This document shows, piece after piece, positions 1,495-52,707 of a stretch of DNA of 52,707 bases (the stretch's first letter is position 1; each line of letters starts with the position of its first letter). Position numbers and translations under genes: made by a program. This stretch comes from Nanoarchaeota archaeon. Its GTDB lineage: Archaea > EX4484-52 > LFW-46. The notes under the pieces are model-generated. The model was not told where the DNA came from and did no database searches. It worked only from the letters and a program-made list of their open reading frames with translations. The DNA lies in the NCBI GenBank assembly GCA_018897155.1, contig JAHILE010000025.1, positions 1 to 52,707 of the forward strand. The letters are read 5' to 3'.

Positions 1495-2928
1495 ATGCTG
1501 AAAAACAAGATTTTTGATATTATCAAAAAAGGCGAAGGGATTCGCATTGAATTCAAAGAGTGCAAAACCGAAATAAACAAAGGAGTCTATGAAACTGTTT
1601 GCGCGTTTTTAAACCGCAGCGGCGGAGAATTATTGCTCGGGGTTAATGACCGCGGCAAAATAACCGGAATTGAGAAGGATTATATCGAGCAGATAAAAAA
1701 GGATTTTGTGACTGCGATAAACAATCCTCAGAAAATAACGCCGTCAGTATATCTGTCTATAGAGCAAGCGGAGATAGATGGAAAATTACTGCTTTATATT
1801 TATGTGCCTGAAAGCTCACAAGTGCACCGATGCAACGGGAAAATATTTGATAGAAATCAGGACGGAGACTTTGATATTACAAACAACAACACGCTTGCCA
1901 CTTCTTTGTATCTGAATAAGCAAACGCTTTATACTGAAAATAAAGTGTATCCATATTGCAAAATTTCTGATTTGCGAAGCGATTTGATTGAACGGGCAAG
2001 AAAACTTGCGGTTAATCAAAACAGCAATCATCCGTGGCGAAATATGAGCAATATTGAGCTATTGAAAAGCGCGAAACTTTATTCAAAAGACTATCAAACC
2101 AACAAAGCCGGATTTACGCTTGCGGCAATTCTTTTATTCGGGAAAGACGAAACAATTCTTTCGGCATTGCCTCACCACAGAACGGATTTAATACTGAGGC
2201 GAGAAAATCTTGACCGGTATGATGATCGTGATGATGTGCGGACAAATCTCATAGAAAGCTACGAAAGAATACTTGCATTTGGACAAAAACATTTGCCCGA
2301 CCCGTTTTATCTTGAAGGAACCCAAAGAATCAGCATAAGGGATAAAATCATTCGTGAAATTGCTTCAAACATATTAATCCATAGAGAATATTCAAATCCG
2401 TTTCCCGCAAAAATAATAATCGAAAAGAATAGAATTTATACAGAAAATGGCAACAAGACACATGGGCAGGGAATAATAAACCCTGAAAATTTCTCTCCGT
2501 TTCCTAAAAATCCGGTTATTGCCGGCGTATTCAAAGAAATCGGCAATGCTGATGAACTAGGTTCTGGCGTGAGAAATCTTGTAAAATACACTAAATTATA
2601 CTCAAATAGCGCGCCTCAGCTATTTGAAGAAGATGTTTTTAAGATAGTTATTCCGTTGACCGACCAAGCTACCCAGCAGGCTACCCCGCAAGCTACCCAG
2701 CAGGCTACCGAGCAGGATGAACGAACAAAAGCAATTTTAGTTTTTTGCTTAGATCCTAAAACAAGAGAAGAAATTCAAACATCATTAAACATAAAGGATA
2801 GAGAATATTTCAGATCAGAAATATTAAAACCATTGATTGAAAAAGGATTATTATTCCTTACAATTCCAGATAAACCGAGCAGCCCAAACCAAAAATATTA
2901 CTCAAAAGTAACTGGAGGAAAAACATGA
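1495..2928 (+). CDS. AlbA_2 (Schlafen-like) domain protein with RecG-like C-terminal region
   Basis: A 477-residue protein of the family often annotated as a putative transcriptional regulator or ATP-dependent DNA helicase (COG2865-like). The N-terminal AlbA_2 domain shows RIEFKEC near residue 18 and FLNRSGGELLLGVNDRGKI around 38-57. The middle carries the histidine-kinase-like ATPase region with HREYSNPFPAKI and ELGSGVRNLVKYTK. A low-complexity linker of repeated Gln-Ala-Thr (around 395-412) leads to a winged-helix-like end. It sits between hsdS and hsdR and its stop overlaps the hsdR start (ATGA), so it is translationally coupled to the restriction subunit. AlbA_2 proteins are frequent passengers in type I loci; a regulatory role is inferred. 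Confidence 0.85.
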   Translation: MLKNKIFDIIKKGEGIRIEFKECKTEINKGVYETVCAFLNRSGGELLLGVNDRGKITGIEKDYIEQIKKDFVTAINNPQKITPSVYLSIEQAEIDGKLLLYIYVPESSQVHRCNGKIFDRNQDGDFDITNNNTLATSLYLNKQTLYTENKVYPYCKISDLRSDLIERARKLAVNQNSNHPWRNMSNIELLKSAKLYSKDYQTNKAGFTLAAILLFGKDETILSALPHHRTDLILRRENLDRYDDRDDVRTNLIESYERILAFGQKHLPDPFYLEGTQRISIRDKIIREIASNILIHREYSNPFPAKIIIEKNRIYTENGNKTHGQGIINPENFSPFPKNPVIAGVFKEIGNADELGSGVRNLVKYTKLYSNSAPQLFEEDVFKIVIPLTDQATQQATPQATQQATEQDERTKAILVFCLDPKTREEIQTSLNIKDREYFRSEILKPLIEKGLLFLTIPDKPSSPNQKYYSKVTGGKT

Positions 2929-5225
2929 ATGAAGATGAAACTAGAGCCGAACTCATTGATCCCAAGCTAAAAGAAAGCGGTTGGGGTGTAATTGAAGGCA
3001 CGAAAATCAATAGAAACTTCCCGATTACTTTAGGCAGAATTAAAACCGGTAATCTCAGAGCCAGCCCAATCAGAGCAGACTATATACTATCCTATAAAGG
3101 CCGTAAACTTGCAGTTATAGAAGCTAAAAGTGATGTTCAAGAACTTGGCGAAGGAGTTGCTCAAGCAAAAGAATATGCTTTGAAACTGCATTTGGAAACT
3201 ACTTTCGCAACCAACGGCAAAGAAATATATCAGATTTGTATGGAAACCGGAAAAGAAGGGATAATAAAAGAGTTTCCAACGCCTGACGAATTATGGAATA
3301 AAACATTCAATATCAAAAACAATTGGAAAGAAAAATTCAATGCAATTCCTAAGGGAGGAATTTACGAGCCCAGGTTCTACCAGGAAATTGCAACAAATAA
3401 CGCTTTAGATGCTATTGCCGAAGGAAAAAATCGATTACTTTTAACTCTTGCAACAGGTACTGGAAAAACTACTATTGCATTTCAAATTGCCTGGAAACTG
3501 TTCCATGCACGTTGGAATTTATTGCGGGATGGCGCAAGAAGGCCGCGGATTTTATTCCTTACTGACAGAAATATTCTGGCAAACCAGGCATTTAATGAAT
3601 TTTCTGCATTCCCTGAAGATGCTTTAATCAGAATTACGCCCAAGGATATAAGAAAGAAGGGTTCGGTTCCAAAAAATGGCAGTATTTTTTTCACAATATT
3701 TCAGACTTTTATGAGCGGCCCAAATGATACGCCTTACTTCGGACAGTACCCTAAAGACTATTTTGATTTAATAATTATTGATGAATGTCATAGAGGCGGA
3801 GCAAATGATGAAGGAAATTGGCGGGCAATAATGGAATACTTCTCCCCTGCGGTTCAATTAGGTTTAACTGCCACTCCAAAACGAAAAGAAAATGCGGACA
3901 CTTACAAATACTTCGGAAAACCGCTTTATGTTTATTCATTAAAAGAAGGAATTAATGACGGTTTCTTAACTCCGTTTAAAGTCAGGACAATTAAAACAAC
4001 CCTGGATGAGTATGTTTATACTTCCGATGACGAGGTTATTGAAGGCGAAGTAGAAGCTGGAAAAATTTATCAGGGGGCGGACTGGAATAGAATAATTGAG
4101 ATTAAAGAAAAAGAAGCACATAATGTAAAATTACTTTTAAAAGAGATTAATCAAAATGAAAAAGCCATTGTTTTTTGCGCAAGCCAGGACCATGCACTTG
4201 CAATTAGGGATTTAATTAATCAATATAAGAAAAGCAAAGAACCAAATTACTGTGTACGTGTTACTGCTAATGATGGAAGACTTGGCGACGAGTATTTGGC
4301 AGAATTTAGAGATAATGAAAAAACAATCCCGACAATTCTTACTACTTCGCAAAAGCTTTCAACCGGCGTTGATGCAAGAAATATTCGCAACATTGTTTTA
4401 ATGCGTCAGATTAAAGAAATAATTGAATTTAAACAAATTGTTGGACGCGGCACAAGATTATTTGATGGAAAAGAATTCTTTACAATATATGATTTTGTTG
4501 GTGCATGTCAACACTTTAGCGATCCGGAATGGGATGGCGAACCAATGGAGCCCGAACTATCAACTGGAAAAAACCTGCAAGTAATAAAAGAGGCGACAGC
4601 ACCTTACAATGAAGACTCAGAAGATCAGCCAAAAAAGAATATCTTAAAAATAAGATTGGGTGATGGTAAAGAAAGAGAAATTCAGCACATGGTTAAAACA
4701 TCATTCTGGAGTGCTAATGGAAAACCAATTTCATTAGAAGAATTTTTAAAAACGATATACGGGGAATTACCCAATTTTTTTAAAAATGAAGACGAACTTC
4801 GTAAAATATGGTCGAATCCCATAACGCGAAAAGCTTTACTTGATAAACTGGATGATGCAGGTTATGGAATGACTGAATTGAAAACATTACAACAATTAAT
4901 AAATGCGGAAAACAGCGACATATTTGATGTTTTAGAATATATTTCTTTTGCAATTAAACCAATTTCAAGGGAGGAAAGAGTTGCTAAAGCACAATCAAAC
5001 ATACTCAAGTCATTAGACAATAATCAAAGAGAATTTTTAGAATTTGTCTTGTCCAAATATATTGAAACTGGTATTGAAGAGCTTGATCAAGATAAACTAC
5101 CAGATCTCCTTAAAATTAAATATTTTGCGATAAATGATGCGACTGAATTGCTCGGCGGCGTTACTAAAATACGGGCGACATTCATTAATTTCCAAAAGCA
5201 TTTATTTGCTACGGCCTCAGATTAG
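2925..5225 (+). CDS. hsdR: Type I restriction enzyme, motor/nuclease subunit HsdR (EcoEI-like)
   Basis: A 766-residue restriction subunit that translocates DNA and cuts it after collision. The N-terminal PD-(D/E)xK nuclease has Asp52 and EAK at 66-68. The SF2 motor follows with Walker A ATGTGKT (about 176-182), the DECH box in LIIIDECHRGG (about 280-290), motif III LTATPK and motif VI QIVGRGTRLFDG. The C-terminal third matches the EcoEI R C-terminal region that contacts the methylase. It follows the AlbA_2 gene with a 4-nt overlap. Sequence is A/T-rich and poor in the GCGCG strings common in the core genes further right, consistent with acquired DNA. Confidence 0.94.
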   Translation: MNEDETRAELIDPKLKESGWGVIEGTKINRNFPITLGRIKTGNLRASPIRADYILSYKGRKLAVIEAKSDVQELGEGVAQAKEYALKLHLETTFATNGKEIYQICMETGKEGIIKEFPTPDELWNKTFNIKNNWKEKFNAIPKGGIYEPRFYQEIATNNALDAIAEGKNRLLLTLATGTGKTTIAFQIAWKLFHARWNLLRDGARRPRILFLTDRNILANQAFNEFSAFPEDALIRITPKDIRKKGSVPKNGSIFFTIFQTFMSGPNDTPYFGQYPKDYFDLIIIDECHRGGANDEGNWRAIMEYFSPAVQLGLTATPKRKENADTYKYFGKPLYVYSLKEGINDGFLTPFKVRTIKTTLDEYVYTSDDEVIEGEVEAGKIYQGADWNRIIEIKEKEAHNVKLLLKEINQNEKAIVFCASQDHALAIRDLINQYKKSKEPNYCVRVTANDGRLGDEYLAEFRDNEKTIPTILTTSQKLSTGVDARNIRNIVLMRQIKEIIEFKQIVGRGTRLFDGKEFFTIYDFVGACQHFSDPEWDGEPMEPELSTGKNLQVIKEATAPYNEDSEDQPKKNILKIRLGDGKEREIQHMVKTSFWSANGKPISLEEFLKTIYGELPNFFKNEDELRKIWSNPITRKALLDKLDDAGYGMTELKTLQQLINAENSDIFDVLEYISFAIKPISREERVAKAQSNILKSLDNNQREFLEFVLSKYIETGIEELDQDKLPDLLKIKYFAINDATELLGGVTKIRATFINFQKHLFATASD

Positions 5226-5385: not shown

Positions 5386-6708
5386 TTATTGAACGCTTGA
5401 AAACTTGAGTTTATCCTTTTGATTCCGCCATTCCGAATTCGGAATAAATTCCCCACCATTTAAAGGCTGACATCCGCTTGCGGAAATATCCATGCCTCCG
5501 ACCATGATGTTTTTTTGCTGAGATGCCGCGACATTACTCAAAGCCTGCATCATCTCCGCCATTTTCTGCTCCATTTTCTCAAAGCGGTTATCATTTTCGT
5601 TCTCGCGCACGGCCATCACTATTCCGTTTAAAATATTGCCACACGAACATATTGATTCGTGAGAAGCTACTGCTGCGCTGCACTTCGGGCAAGTTTTAAC
5701 AACAAATGTATTCTCCACCTTCTTTTGCTCAACATCAATTCCAGACATTGCAAACATTTCATTCTCAACATCCTCATCGACTAAGTGCGTGTATGTTGAT
5801 AATGCACGGGATTGCGGAGCGTGACCTACGGCCTTCCGTATTACGCCCTCAGGAACTTTCTTCAAAACATACTGTGTTAATCTAGAATGTCGAAAAAGAT
5901 ATGGCGTTATTGCCCTTCCAAGAACTCGTGTGCTCAATAGCTTTATTGTTTTTGAAAACGCTGGATGTGTAATAAATCTTGGTTCGCCCTTGGTCATATA
6001 ATAAAACAAAGGAGTATCCGGCATTTCTCTGAAAGCATGGGCGTTAATCCATTTCTCAAGCATAGGAGCTGAGACAATCGCAAAGACAACGCGTTTTCCA
6101 GTCTTGCCATCTACATTTATGCGGTATCCGTGCGTATTTTTTACAACATCTCGAAGCATTATGCCGCGTATCTCGCCAGGACGACATCCAGTTTCATATA
6201 ATACGCCGAATATGGTTGAATACATCAGACCATCCTTTAAGCCAGATGCTGCAGAAATAAGCTTATTCACATCATCATCCGTAAGCAAATCCTCGCGTCT
6301 TAAACTGCTTTGTGGCTTCTTCTGTCTTAGATGCTTTGTTCTTGGGCTTTGCTCACCATCATCTAAGCCATCAATAAAACGGAACATAACCTTAAAGGTC
6401 GTAGCAAAATCGTTTATGCTCGCCGGTTTATATCTTCCACATAGACGTATCTTTGTCATTACGGAATCGATGTCTGCTTTTGTGTAATCAATTAAATCCT
6501 TTTCACTGTTTTGCGTAATGGTTCGGGCGAACATGAGATATTTCTTCACTCTAAGAAGAGATAACTGCCGGCTGATGAGCCAATCCCTGAAAGAAAATAA
6601 TGTTTGCTTGTTTCTTGCGCTCATATCACTTCTTTCTATCAACGCGTTTGTCCGATTCATGTCTGCTGTCAAGTCGTATAATTTCTCTTTGACGTCATTA
6701 AATCCCAT
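5386..6708 (-). CDS. Tyrosine recombinase/integrase with C-terminal zinc ribbon
   Basis: A 440-residue XerC/phage-type site-specific recombinase. The N-terminal half is a SAM-like core-binding domain. The catalytic domain shows Arg in YETGCRPGEIRG (near residue 176), HxxR in LFRHSRLTQ (near 270), GH in VGHAPQSRA and the likely nucleophile Tyr in STYTHL (around 300). A four-cysteine zinc ribbon (CPKC ... CSCG, around 336-355) and an apparently disordered tail follow, which is common in archaeal integrases. The start codon lies 62 nt beyond the 3' end of tRNA-Leu and on the same strand, the usual arrangement for an element that integrates at a tRNA 3' end. The rest of the element would extend leftward. 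Confidence 0.93.
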   Translation of the reverse strand: MGFNDVKEKLYDLTADMNRTNALIERSDMSARNKQTLFSFRDWLISRQLSLLRVKKYLMFARTITQNSEKDLIDYTKADIDSVMTKIRLCGRYKPASINDFATTFKVMFRFIDGLDDGEQSPRTKHLRQKKPQSSLRREDLLTDDDVNKLISAASGLKDGLMYSTIFGVLYETGCRPGEIRGIMLRDVVKNTHGYRINVDGKTGKRVVFAIVSAPMLEKWINAHAFREMPDTPLFYYMTKGEPRFITHPAFSKTIKLLSTRVLGRAITPYLFRHSRLTQYVLKKVPEGVIRKAVGHAPQSRALSTYTHLVDEDVENEMFAMSGIDVEQKKVENTFVVKTCPKCSAAVASHESICSCGNILNGIVMAVRENENDNRFEKMEQKMAEMMQALSNVAASQQKNIMVGGMDISASGCQPLNGGEFIPNSEWRNQKDKLKFSSVQ

Positions 6709-6743: not shown

Positions 6744-6784
6744 AGGTATGGGAATATGACTTTCTTTGTATGCAGGGGAGGGGA

Positions 6785-6944
6785 TATTCGCCGATTCCGG
6801 ATAGTTTGTGACCTCGACGATTTTGAGGAATCGAAAGATTCCTCAAAAGCTTGAAAATCGCAGATTTTCATGAAGTCGAGGTCGCTGGTTTTCTCTTTCT
6901 ACCCGGACTTGTCTTTCTCTTTTTCAAAAGAGAAAGAAACCGGA
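6785..6944 (-). other. 160-nt BHB intron in the T loop of tRNA-Leu
   Basis: On the minus strand the junctions form a textbook BHB. The outer helix is GGGGG/CCCCU (the T stem itself). The 4-bp central helix is UUCG/CGAA. A 3-nt bulge AUU lies on the 5' side and UAU on the 3' side, and the inner helix is CCGGUUU/GAAUCGG with G-U pairs. Cutting after the second bulge nucleotide joins UUCGAU to U and restores the 7-nt loop UUCGAUU. The interior holds two strong hairpins: 12 bp at 6912-6937 and a nested palindrome at 6810-6883 that belongs to the repeat family seen elsewhere in the window. Confidence 0.87.
6810..6883 (-). repeat. Nested hairpin repeat inside the tRNA intron
   Basis: Nine-bp outer arms GACCTCGAC/GTCGAGGTC enclose two inner hairpins, GAGGAATC/GATTCCTC and GAAAATC/GATTTTC. 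Read on the minus strand, the first inner hairpin has the flanks GCTTTT before and AAAATCG after, the same flanks as the intergenic modules at 37.1, 51.4 and 52.6 kb. The second is nearly identical to the hairpin at 51489-51510. Confidence 0.75.
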
Positions 6945-6992
6945 ATCGAACCCCCGAAGGGACTAACCCACAGAAGCCTCAGTCCTGCCTCT

Positions 6993-7030
6993 TTTGTCGC
7001 TGGCGGCGATAAAACTTCCGCGCGCCGACT
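6993..7030 (-). other. 38-nt BHB intron in the D loop of tRNA-Leu
   Basis: The minus-strand junction folds as central helix GGUC/GACA (three of four pairs), 3-nt bulges UAA and AAA, and inner helix GUCGGCG/CGCCAGC wait-free except for one C-A mismatch. Cutting after the second bulge nucleotide joins GGUCUA to AGAGG, which gives the D loop AAGCGGUCUAA and the D stem CUC/GAG. The intron thus lies just before A21, an uncommon position. The outer helix is weak, so this is a relaxed BHB, and a shift of one nucleotide in the exact cut sites gives the same product. Confidence 0.78.
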
Positions 7031-7105
7031 TAGACCGCTTGAGTACCCCTGCACAAAATATATGATGCGTTAGTTATTGGCAAAGGAAGATTTAAATACG
7101 AATTG

Positions 7106-8434
7106 TCAAACAGATTTTTTAAATTCAATAAGGCTTTTCTGCGGTTTTTTTTGATTATTCTTTGATTTATTTTCAGCACCATCAACCTCATTATTGATTT
7201 CATCCTCATTAAACACGCGCCCTACGCCATCAATTATTGGAACTCCGTAAACGCCGTCATATCCGGGCTTTACCTGAATCGCGCCGACGCGGTTTTTCAT
7301 TATGATGTCCGCGATTTTCGGCTCAACAACCTTTTCGAGCTCCTCGCGCGGCGCATCCATCAGCACATTGAACTCGTTGCCGAACTTTCGAATCAATACA
7401 TCAAACACAGCCCATACCTTTTTCGAAGAAACCGCGCCCCCGCCAAGCGCGTTTGCAATAACTTCAGAAAGCGGCAGCATTGTATAAAACGGAATCGCGT
7501 TTTTTGGTGTATAACCTTCGAGCCTGTCTGCAAGCTCCTCGACCCTGTTCAAAACGCCGATAACAAGCGGTTTCCCGCAAACAGGGCAAAGACCGTTGTG
7601 TTTTTTTGTTTCTTTCGGCTCCATAGAGATGTTGCAGAGCCTGTGCCCGTCAACATGATATTTGCCATAAGCGGGATTAACTTCAACGGTTCCCAAGAAT
7701 TCTTTTGGATTCTTTTGCCGGAGTGCGCCGATAAGATTCTTGTATGTCGGTTCTTTGAAATCAAATATATTGCACTCCCTTCCAATCCGCCACGGCCAGA
7801 AAGAATGCGAATCAGAATTTGAGATAAGAGTAAATCGGTCAAGCTGGGAAAGCCTCCAGTTCATCGCGGGGTCGCTGGAAAGCCCGGTCTCAAGCGCGTA
7901 AATGTGTTTTGCCTGGTCCTTGAAACAGTCCTCGATACTGTTGAAACCGGACATTGAACCGAAAACTGAGAACCATGGAGTCCAGATATGCGCCGGAATT
8001 ATCTCGATATCGTCAGATATCTTTTTCAAATCTTCTACCATATCGCAGCAGGGATACCTGCCGATAATCGGCCTGCCGTCAGAGCGCAAATTGCCTTTTT
8101 TTGCAAGGTGCGCGTTTATCTGACCGACAATTTCAAACGACGGCGCAAGAATAATGTTATGGACTCTTCTGCCTTTTCCGTCCTGCGTATAGATGCTTGA
8201 AACCTCCGTCTGGAAAACATAGCTCATGCCGTTTGCAGATTTTGGGATTCCTGTCCCGTCTTCGTGAAGATATTGCTTCAGTTCTGCAATCCAATCAGGA
8301 TGCGTAAAGTCAGCTGTGCCAAGAAGATTCAGGCCTTTGATGCGCGCGTATTTATCCAAATTCGGAATAGTGAGGTCTTTTGAAGTTGCTCGGCTGTATT
8401 TTGAATGAAGGTGCAGGTCTGCAAAGAATTTCAT
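7106..8434 (-). CDS. endoQ: Endonuclease Q (EndoQ), PHP-family DNA repair nuclease
   Basis: A 442-residue match to archaeal EndoQ, which nicks DNA 5' to deaminated bases (uracil, hypoxanthine, xanthine). The PHP metal site is visible as DLHLHSKYS at residues 6-14, HIWTPWF near 151 and SNSDSHSFWPWRIG near 205. A four-ligand zinc element with CPVCGKPL lies near 285, and a helical DNA-binding part follows. The C-terminus is a charged, Lys/Asn-rich tail, possibly a partner (PCNA-type) peptide, since QKSLIEFKK resembles a PIP box. A/T box 8455-8465 is centred 26 nt before the ATG, suggesting a leaderless mRNA. Confidence 0.92.
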   Translation of the reverse strand: MKFFADLHLHSKYSRATSKDLTIPNLDKYARIKGLNLLGTADFTHPDWIAELKQYLHEDGTGIPKSANGMSYVFQTEVSSIYTQDGKGRRVHNIILAPSFEIVGQINAHLAKKGNLRSDGRPIIGRYPCCDMVEDLKKISDDIEIIPAHIWTPWFSVFGSMSGFNSIEDCFKDQAKHIYALETGLSSDPAMNWRLSQLDRFTLISNSDSHSFWPWRIGRECNIFDFKEPTYKNLIGALRQKNPKEFLGTVEVNPAYGKYHVDGHRLCNISMEPKETKKHNGLCPVCGKPLVIGVLNRVEELADRLEGYTPKNAIPFYTMLPLSEVIANALGGGAVSSKKVWAVFDVLIRKFGNEFNVLMDAPREELEKVVEPKIADIIMKNRVGAIQVKPGYDGVYGVPIIDGVGRVFNEDEINNEVDGAENKSKNNQKKPQKSLIEFKKSV

Positions 8435-38748: not shown

Positions 38749-39154
38749 ATTGACTGTTAATCCTGAAATGTTCCTTTATGGTGAAATAATCCTTGTGGGA
38801 AAACGTCACCTCAGGCTTTATGCCGGACAAATTCCGGACCTCTTTTATTCTTTTAATGGTTAAGCCACCCATCAGTATTCTTCTCACTTCGGTGGAATCA
38901 TCTATTTCCACAGGGATAAGATTGAATGGAAACGGTATTCTCTCCATCTGTTTTAATCTATCAAGCGAAACTGGGTAAGAGCGCGGGGCACCTTCACAAT
39001 TGGTATAATATGCAATGTTTTCTTCCAGCCCACCATAATACAGGATTTGTTTTTTGACATCCAAGAGCCCTATCTGCCGCGTCGCGTATCCGTCAAAAAA
39101 AGAAACATAACTATCGACGACAGGTTTATCACGATCAAAAATATCTGGAGTCAT
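38741..39154 (-). CDS. Unknown protein, 137 residues
   Basis: No family recognised. The protein is soluble with mixed charges, no cysteine cluster and no membrane segment. A GGLEENIAYYTN segment and the LKQMERIPFPFNLIPVEI stretch are distinctive but suggest nothing specific. It is convergent with rnz (8-nt overlap). It lies divergent from the OB-fold gene with about 85 nt between starts, which holds an A/T box for that gene. Confidence 0.5.
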   Translation of the reverse strand: MTPDIFDRDKPVVDSYVSFFDGYATRQIGLLDVKKQILYYGGLEENIAYYTNCEGAPRSYPVSLDRLKQMERIPFPFNLIPVEIDDSTEVRRILMGGLTIKRIKEVRNLSGIKPEVTFSHKDYFTIKEHFRINSQFI

Positions 39155-45792: not shown

Positions 45793-46583
45793 ATCCCCTT
45801 CTCACATGTTGTTTTTGAAATAAATATCTCGCCAAAAAGCGTTGGCTGATTGCATATTATCCGCTCCTGGTTTGAAAGATGAAGCAATGAGCTGAAATTT
45901 TTTATTTTCTCTTCCGGCGTTGCAACTTTCTTCGCCGCAAAAAGAGTTGAAAACGCGATAACACCATCTTTTGCTTTTTCAATATAGGATATAACTGATT
46001 CGTAAACTTCTTCAATCTTTTTGGTTATATCTTCGCCTTTCAACTCTATGTTAAATATATGCCTTGCTGCGCGCCTATTTTGAACCTTCATGGCCTTGCC
46101 AAGCGCGTTTATAAGTTCTTTTATAGTGACGCGCCTTCGCGGTTCCCTTTTTAGCGGAATGTCCATTGCAGGAAGAATGAGCTGCTCGCCCGAGGACATT
46201 TCATCCTCAACTTCCGCATCAACTTCTTCAAGGGATACGGGCTCTTCATCAATCTGCTTAAGCGTTTCTGATTTTAAGCGATAAATTATGGCTGCGGCAA
46301 GTATGATTCTTGAAGGCGCCCGAAGATCACGCTTCTGAAGCGTCTGTATGAATGATGTAAACCGCTCGCTTAATTTTATCAAATCAACATCCCACGGATT
46401 CATGTCTCTTGTAAGGGAAAACAGCACATTTTCCCAGTCATCAGTTGATATGTATGTAAGAATTTTCTCAGATTCTGATTTGAACGAAAACTTCTCTTCC
46501 TGAATCAACTCCGGAACATCGGAATCCTTAAAATCAATATCCTCAACACCCATAACAACCATCATTTTCGCAACAATGAACAT
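45789..46583 (-). CDS. scpA: Segregation and condensation protein A (ScpA), kleisin
   Basis: A 264-residue kleisin that links SMC heads. Recognisable are DMNPWDVDLIKLSERF near residue 57, the helix RDLRAPSRIILAAAIIYRL, an acidic linker and the C-terminal winged-helix part with IAFSTLFAA. The start at 46583 follows the wHTH gene stop by 4 nt; the longer frame overlaps that gene. The order wHTH-scpA-small protein suggests a chromosome-structure operon (inference from scpA). Confidence 0.86.
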   Translation of the reverse strand: MFIVAKMMVVMGVEDIDFKDSDVPELIQEEKFSFKSESEKILTYISTDDWENVLFSLTRDMNPWDVDLIKLSERFTSFIQTLQKRDLRAPSRIILAAAIIYRLKSETLKQIDEEPVSLEEVDAEVEDEMSSGEQLILPAMDIPLKREPRRRVTIKELINALGKAMKVQNRRAARHIFNIELKGEDITKKIEEVYESVISYIEKAKDGVIAFSTLFAAKKVATPEEKIKNFSSLLHLSNQERIICNQPTLFGEIFISKTTCEKGI

Positions 46584-52609: not shown

Positions 52610-52707
52610 GTTCACTTGCGTTCTCAGCTTTTGAGGACTCCTTCAATTCCTCAAAATTCGTTCGCTCTCGGCTTTTTCAACCATTCACAAACGTTATCGG
52701 GTTGAAA
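52610..52707. repeat. Hairpin modules at the right edge
   Basis: CTCAGCTTTT, stem GAGGA/TCCTC and AAAATTCGTTCGCT are followed by CTCGGCTTTT, stem TCAACC/GGTTGA and AA, where the window ends. These follow the same rule as the modules at 37.1 kb and the spacer also has TTCGCT. No gene is seen after the dehydrogenase stop. Confidence 0.65.

Follow-up and report, generated by a model that had tools for sequence, protein, structure and literature searches.

A 160-nucleotide intron in the T loop of a tRNA-Leu(GAG) gene is one copy of a multicopy and apparently mobile family of structured elements. The gene lies in a 52,707-nucleotide stretch of DNA (the window) from a Nanoarchaeota archaeon (assembly GCA_018897155.1, contig JAHILE010000025.1), and it contains a second intron in the D loop. 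The initial annotation of this DNA described both introns and overlooked the relationship of the larger one to other elements. On our reading, the two-intron gene is functional, its introns are removed at bulge-helix-bulge (BHB) motifs, members of the T-loop intron family spread as DNA, and a mirrored purine motif within them might form a triplex. We consider this combined reading probably correct.

A tRNA-Leu(GAG) gene with two introns

The segment 7052..6771 on the minus strand is probably a functional tRNA-Leu(GAG) gene, present once in the genome and interrupted by two introns of BHB type. The presence of two non-canonical introns, as originally proposed, is borne out: ARAGORN recognizes a full tRNA-Leu(gag) when both are removed, and finds no tRNA in the unspliced gene or when only the T-loop intron is removed. 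The claim that only joint removal works is right for complete arms, but ARAGORN already recognizes the Leu(GAG) body after removal of the D-loop intron alone. Standard finders do overlook the gene, as the initial annotation expected, in that ARAGORN reports no tRNA anywhere in the window and cmscan against Rfam reports no family there at gathering score. Another intact tRNA-Leu(GAG) had been named as a possible sign of a pseudogene; none is found in this genome, which is 96% complete, or in that of the sister species LFW-46. The tRNA inventory of the present genome was assembled from searches and is incomplete.

The junctions of the T-loop intron form a canonical BHB, comprising the T stem (GGGGG/CCCCT), a central helix (TTCG/CGAA), 3-nucleotide bulges (ATT and TAT) and an inner helix (CCGGT/ATCGG). 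Because of this geometry, the cut is placed at position 59/60. Its removal together with the D-loop intron restores a complete tRNA in ARAGORN, and the intron is predicted to be spliced. The description of both insertions as canonical BHBs with 3-nucleotide bulges is accurate for this intron but not for the D-loop intron, which has a relaxed BHB with a G.A mismatch beside the central helix and a non-contiguous outer helix. The ends of the D-loop intron are uncertain by 1 nucleotide. The mature tRNA would thus be 84 nucleotides, as first predicted, by analogy with the other tRNA-Leu species of the genome, or 85 nucleotides by the 2|1 cut rule.

Archaeal tRNA introns range from 11 to 129 nucleotides, with medians mostly of 12 to 25 nucleotides, in a 2014 review (PMC4090602), so the T-loop intron is indeed unusually long. 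Its site is non-canonical, as had been noted, but position 59/60 itself was already known in archaea, as were several introns per tRNA and intron transposition (PMC4090602, PMC4033280). Many further tRNA genes in this genome have at least one very long intron in the D, anticodon or variable regions, some of them well over 100 nucleotides; examples are Pro(CGG), with a gene of 431 nucleotides, and Glu(CTC).

An empty site in a sister species

LFW-46 belongs to the same genus and is classified in p__EX4484-52, a DPANN lineage that is sister to Nanohaloarchaeota (PMC8561730). Gene order around its tRNA-Leu(GAG) gene (contig CABMCT010000025.1) matches that of the window: a 442-amino-acid open reading frame (81% identical between the two), the tRNA, and a tyrosine recombinase (75% identical). 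In the LFW-46 tRNA gene, the D loop carries a different insert of 28 nucleotides at the corresponding position, whereas the T loop is uninterrupted, GGGGGTTCAAATCCCC. The exons of the two genes are identical at 83 of 85 positions, and the two mismatches fall at the splice site within the T loop. On this comparison, the T-loop intron of Leu(GAG) has evidently appeared or disappeared after the two sister species diverged. Other sites are also filled in one species and empty in the other, namely Ile(GAT), filled in the present genome, and Ser(GGA) and Pro(TGG), filled in LFW-46.

Members and distribution of the T-loop intron family

A search with the intron against its own genome reveals copies next to or within other tRNA hits. 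With BLAST, a BHB scan and covariance models, eight T-loop copies were detected in this genome, each in a different tRNA: Leu(GAG), Ala(CGC), Asp(GTC), Pro(CGG), Pro(GGG), Thr(GGT), Ile(GAT) and Ser(GCT). LFW-46 has ten, in Pro(GGG), Pro(CGG), Pro(TGG), Ala(CGC), Asp(GTC), Ser(GGA), Ser(GCT), Leu(CAA), Leu(CAG) and an Arg tRNA, plus a single anticodon-loop copy in Ser(CGA). Full T-loop members are 107 to 215 nucleotides long. The Ser(GCT) copy is inverted in both species, where it represents different subtypes, and it still forms a canonical BHB. Shorter T-loop introns of 20 to 45 nucleotides are found in this genome in Gln(CTG), Arg(CCT), Leu(CAA), a second Arg and Glu(CTC), and canonical BHBs occur in at least 11 of its T loops. 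When the splicing test was applied to further genes, all nine contained no tRNA in unspliced form according to ARAGORN and gave the expected isotype once spliced.

Three copies are located outside tRNA genes, directly after stop codons, at the junction TAATTCGG. Two of these are in the present genome (contigs C6 and C35) and one is in LFW-46 (contig C48). The C35 copy follows a gene resembling transcription factor B.

At E <= 0.01, the covariance model yields nine copies in the present genome and, in LFW-46, fourteen hits, some of the weaker of which overlap a single copy or are noise. No hit that stands up was found in the 32 other genomes of the order, and the family appears restricted to one genus (two of 34 genomes, the same 34 serving as order set and phylum set). 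The sole match outside the genus (E 0.009, in genome G025) has no resemblance to the element. Within the window, candidate second copies at 45826-45954, inside a coding open reading frame, and at 39019-39105 likewise do not resemble it, and covariance-model hits near E 0.004 are on this account taken as noise. Six exact pattern matches occur in viral contigs, which is fewer than we would expect by chance given the size of the collection, and the covariance model finds none there. A known structured RNA or group I intron was also considered and rejected, as no Rfam family reaches its gathering score and weak C/D-box, wcaG and microRNA scores are at chance level.

Turnover between the two species

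There are five T loops that contain a family element in both species, and in every case the subtypes differ. Core identity between the paired copies is 56 to 67%, and the best match of a copy is at another site, with 83 to 95% identity. Judged by these identities, copies at orthologous sites are non-orthologous. Subtypes that differ at shared sites, together with sites filled in only one species, indicate fast movement or replacement of the elements. The inverted Ser(GCT) copy and the copies outside tRNAs suggest, with less certainty, that the element moves as DNA.

Fold and mirrored purine motif

Four helices, P0 to P3, are common to the members. P0 coincides with the inner helix of the BHB, P1 is a hairpin of a pyrimidine and a purine strand, and P3 is a hairpin too. 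In the eight-copy alignment, 93.3% of cells are paired, 15 of 34 pairs have changed on both sides and 0 of 500 shuffles are as good, figures that lean towards the fold because the alignment is model-fitted. Sliding the partners by one column lowers pairing to about 50%. Covariation in P1 and P3 is also present in an independent MAFFT/RNAalifold result. The MAFFT alignments A1 to A3 place the 3' half wrongly, so the models were built from a two-sequence alignment plus its matches. The two strong hairpins first noted inside the intron exist, and they turn out to be parts of the family element plus a nested genomic repeat. This repeat belongs to a palindrome family with variable stems joined by AAGCTTTT, which occurs at many places in the genome. 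Its members are found within introns and close several contigs, among them that of the window (52626-52657).

The unpaired purine linker between P2 and P3 mirrors the purine strand of P1. In subtype A, the two sequences are AGAAAGAGAAAA and AAAAGAGAAAGA, respectively, and the mirror recurs with a different sequence in each of subtypes B (Pro GGG), C (the C6 copy) and D (Ile). Across 22 copies, the mean mirror score is 11.6 against the copy's own P1, compared with 7.4 against P1 of other subtypes and 9.2 for the direct-repeat alternative. Shuffling the linkers of four subtype representatives gives a combined p near 1e-6. In the same four, an ordinary helix was rejected as the explanation, as a direct repeat or Watson-Crick partner extends over 9 to 10 nucleotides versus 12 to 15 for the mirror. 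Most copies of A, the D subtype and a single copy each of B and C have a perfect mirror, and there are one or two mismatches in the other B and C copies, Ala(CGC) and Arg. Most B copies have a T within the purine strand, and in the Ala(CGC) copy of this genome a direct match is better than the mirror.

A purine-motif intrastrand triplex requires a pyrimidine strand, the purine strand complementary to it and a further purine strand in mirrored order (PMC4666352). The arrangement seen here (Y-R-R') might be such a triplex, although this assignment is less certain than the fold. If so, a covarying mirror motif would represent a natural triplex-forming sequence that is kept by selection.

The splicing endonuclease

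Each of the two genomes encodes one PF01974 protein. In the present genome this protein also matches PF02778 and is a single-unit open frame (contig C48, 52943-53458, minus strand). The enzyme consists of one alpha-type unit, and in the PDB it matches the M. jannaschii endonuclease (1a79) best. Searches with PF01974 and PF02778 found no beta subunit or three-unit fusion in either genome, where a very divergent beta subunit is still possible, and the few second PF01974 matches in other genomes of the order are all below cut-off. The earlier expectation that a heterotetramer or an ARMAN-type enzyme is needed is not supported, in that one alpha-type unit was the only candidate found. An enzyme of this kind should cut a canonical BHB such as that of the T-loop intron; the relaxed BHB in the D loop is less easily accounted for. 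A short lysine-bearing loop, GKWIDEEKVTY, is found at the place of the crenarchaeal and ARMAN specificity loops (CSL and ASL), which it resembles, and given this loop a broad specificity is possible.

A possible mechanism

The T stem of the pre-tRNA, the conserved T-loop bases TTCR and the YGAA at the 3' end of the intron would together form the canonical BHB, which the alpha-type endonuclease of the genome would cut, and a ligase would join the exons. TTCR is present in every tRNA T loop, so the element might enter any of them and be spliced without adapting. The T loop would on that account be a safe site. Copies would spread as DNA, either by transposition or through recombination or gene conversion involving two tRNA genes. 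A Y-R-R' triple helix formed by DNA that is single-stranded or supercoiled, or by the RNA, may promote breakage and spread, or it may protect the intron. With slightly less than even confidence, we propose that the family is a new class of mobile DNA element, about 105 to 120 base pairs long without nested insertions and defined by the P0-P3 fold and a covarying triplex, which would insert recurrently in the invariant T loop of tRNA genes because, in either orientation, splicing by the host takes it out there.

Alternative explanations

The main rival to movement at the DNA level is that gene conversion acts alone, such that an old family of T-loop introns has descended vertically and been reshuffled by homologous recombination through the shared T arm and intron ends. 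The shared T-arm and P0 sequences would provide the homology, subtypes do turn over at filled sites, and the presence of the same inverted orientation with different subtypes in both Ser(GCT) genes fits conversion of a pre-existing intron. However, the copies after stop codons and the anticodon-loop copy need true insertion or precise loss, as does the clean presence or absence at Leu(GAG), Ile(GAT), Ser(GGA) and Pro(TGG). We regard this explanation as unlikely to be the whole of the matter, yet as a serious contender. Another explanation is that the neighbouring tyrosine recombinase gene brought an intron-bearing attachment site with it, as has been suggested for the tRNA-Thr of Caldiarchaeum (PMC3293823). 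The integrase gene is intact and follows the tRNA immediately, on its 3' side and in the same direction, as in the pNOB8-type layout, and similar layouts exist at Asp and Glu(TTC). Against this, the same integrase flanks the intron-less T loop of LFW-46, no attachment-site repeat was found within the window, and few of the integrase hits adjoin a T-loop copy, so that the majority of copies lack this neighbour. An integrative origin is improbable in our judgment.

It might also be supposed that insertion of a repeat inactivated the tRNA and that the BHB is accidental, given that the insert is a multicopy repeat with a further repeat nested in it. No other Leu(GAG) gene would then serve this nearly complete genome, and several tRNAs would be lost together, because the nine other tested genes are alike. 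Canonical BHBs at so many T loops, and exons that are unchanged outside the T loop, are also difficult to reconcile with inactivation. Chance or a pseudogene was thus rejected based on the nine-gene splicing test, the conserved exons and the single-copy status, and we give this explanation next to no weight.

Several observations count against our own reading. Splicing is a prediction from gene sequences. In the endonuclease, Ala replaces the conserved catalytic Lys (HSVRK motif; MJ K156, ARMAN-2 K282), so that activity of the enzyme is uncertain; the same Ala is found in the other members of the order that were read. No transposase or recombinase can be linked to the element, and the neighbouring integrase is present beside the empty T loop too. 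Much of the turnover could come from tRNA genes converting one another, with no mobility mechanism of the element's own. In addition, all-RNA purine-motif triplexes are generally weak, so perhaps the triplex matters in DNA only, or not at all.

Features of the window and neighbouring genes

Coordinates of the gene, its introns and the family element are given in Table 1. The 442-amino-acid gene adjoining the tRNA (7106-8434, minus strand) has no Pfam match, although related genes exist in archaea and in many bacteria. A gene for a helicase resembling a type I restriction R subunit lies downstream of the integrase and is read in the opposite direction (2925-5225, plus strand; HSDR_N, ResIII, EcoEI_R_C). 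Elsewhere in the genome, tyrosine recombinase genes are directly 3' of Glu(TTC) (C32:7282-7776) and Asp(GTC) (C21:8906-9577), on the same strand as the tRNA.

Table 1. Positions of the tRNA-Leu(GAG) gene, the intron-family element and the adjacent recombinase gene in the window
Feature	Position	Strand	Remarks
Tyrosine recombinase (PF00589)	5386..6708	-	Directly 3' of tRNA-Leu(GAG); 75% identical in LFW-46
tRNA-Leu(GAG) gene, predicted, unspliced, 282 nt	6771..7052	-	In-silico splicing; syntenic copy in LFW-46
Exon 1: acceptor 5' strand and 5' part of D arm	7031..7052	-	Identical in LFW-46
D-loop intron, 37 nt (38 nt if cut 1 base later)	6994..7030	-	Relaxed BHB, central helix GTC/GAC
Exon 2: anticodon arm (GAG), variable arm, T stem, start of T loop	6945..6993	-	
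T-loop intron, position 59/60, 160 nt, intron-family subtype A	6785..6944	-	
Exon 3: T60, T-stem 3' strand, acceptor 3' strand, A73	6771..6784	-	
Family element as bounded by covariance models	6791..6943	-	96.5 bits, E=4.9e-19 in window (model R2)
P0 5' strand (inner BHB helix)	6939..6943, partner 6791-6795	-	
P1 hairpin	6912..6937	-	Pyrimidine strand about 6926-6939; purine strand R AAAAGAGAAAGA 6912-6923
P2 5' strand TCCGGGTAG	6899..6907, partner 6796-6804	-	
Purine linker R2 AGAAAGAGAAAA, exact mirror of P1 purine strand	6889..6900	-	Candidate third strand, R.R:Y triplex
P3 hairpin GACCTCGAC/GTCGAGGTC	6810..6883	-	Loop enlarged by nested palindromic genomic repeat, about 6819-6874

Relationship to known systems

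How archaeal tRNA introns are gained is an open question, in that transposition has been proposed and the moving unit and mechanism are unknown (PMC4090602). Two close relatives with recently filled and empty sites, swapping subtypes, and inverted and non-tRNA copies make this question testable. Standard finders miss the intron-bearing genes, and genomes of this genus consequently look short of tRNAs. LFW-46 was reported to have 18 tRNA types (PMC8561730).

One close parallel is provided by the transposed tRNA introns described in 2010 in Thermoproteales, for which species-specific gain and spread at the DNA level were also inferred (PMC4090602, PMC4033280). As in that case, similar introns occur here in non-homologous tRNA genes and are present or absent at orthologous sites. 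In contrast to the archaeal tRNA introns that have been reviewed, the present family is 107 to 215 nucleotides long with a covarying four-helix fold, a mirrored purine motif and a preference for position 59/60, and it includes inverted copies and copies outside tRNAs in a DPANN genus. The box C/D-nesting introns of archaeal tRNA-Trp are also long and structured (PMC4090602), but they differ in position and structure, and no Rfam family reaches threshold here. In Caldiarchaeum, an intron proposed to have been gained with an integrase is likewise present or absent in one tRNA locus with an integrase adjoining the tRNA (PMC3293823), whereas here an integrase flanks both the filled and the empty site, and many tRNAs harbour members of the intron family.

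The purine motif resembles the intrastrand triplex repeats of bacteria, which are multicopy, combine Y, R and a mirrored purine third strand within one strand, and are associated with instability (Holder et al. 2015, PMC4666352). The bacterial repeats that are described in detail are G/C-rich and intergenic, whereas the putative triplex motif here is A-rich, archaeal and inside tRNA introns. Relative to the literature searched, what is new is the combination of features, the length, the shared fold, the preference for the T loop and the DPANN setting.
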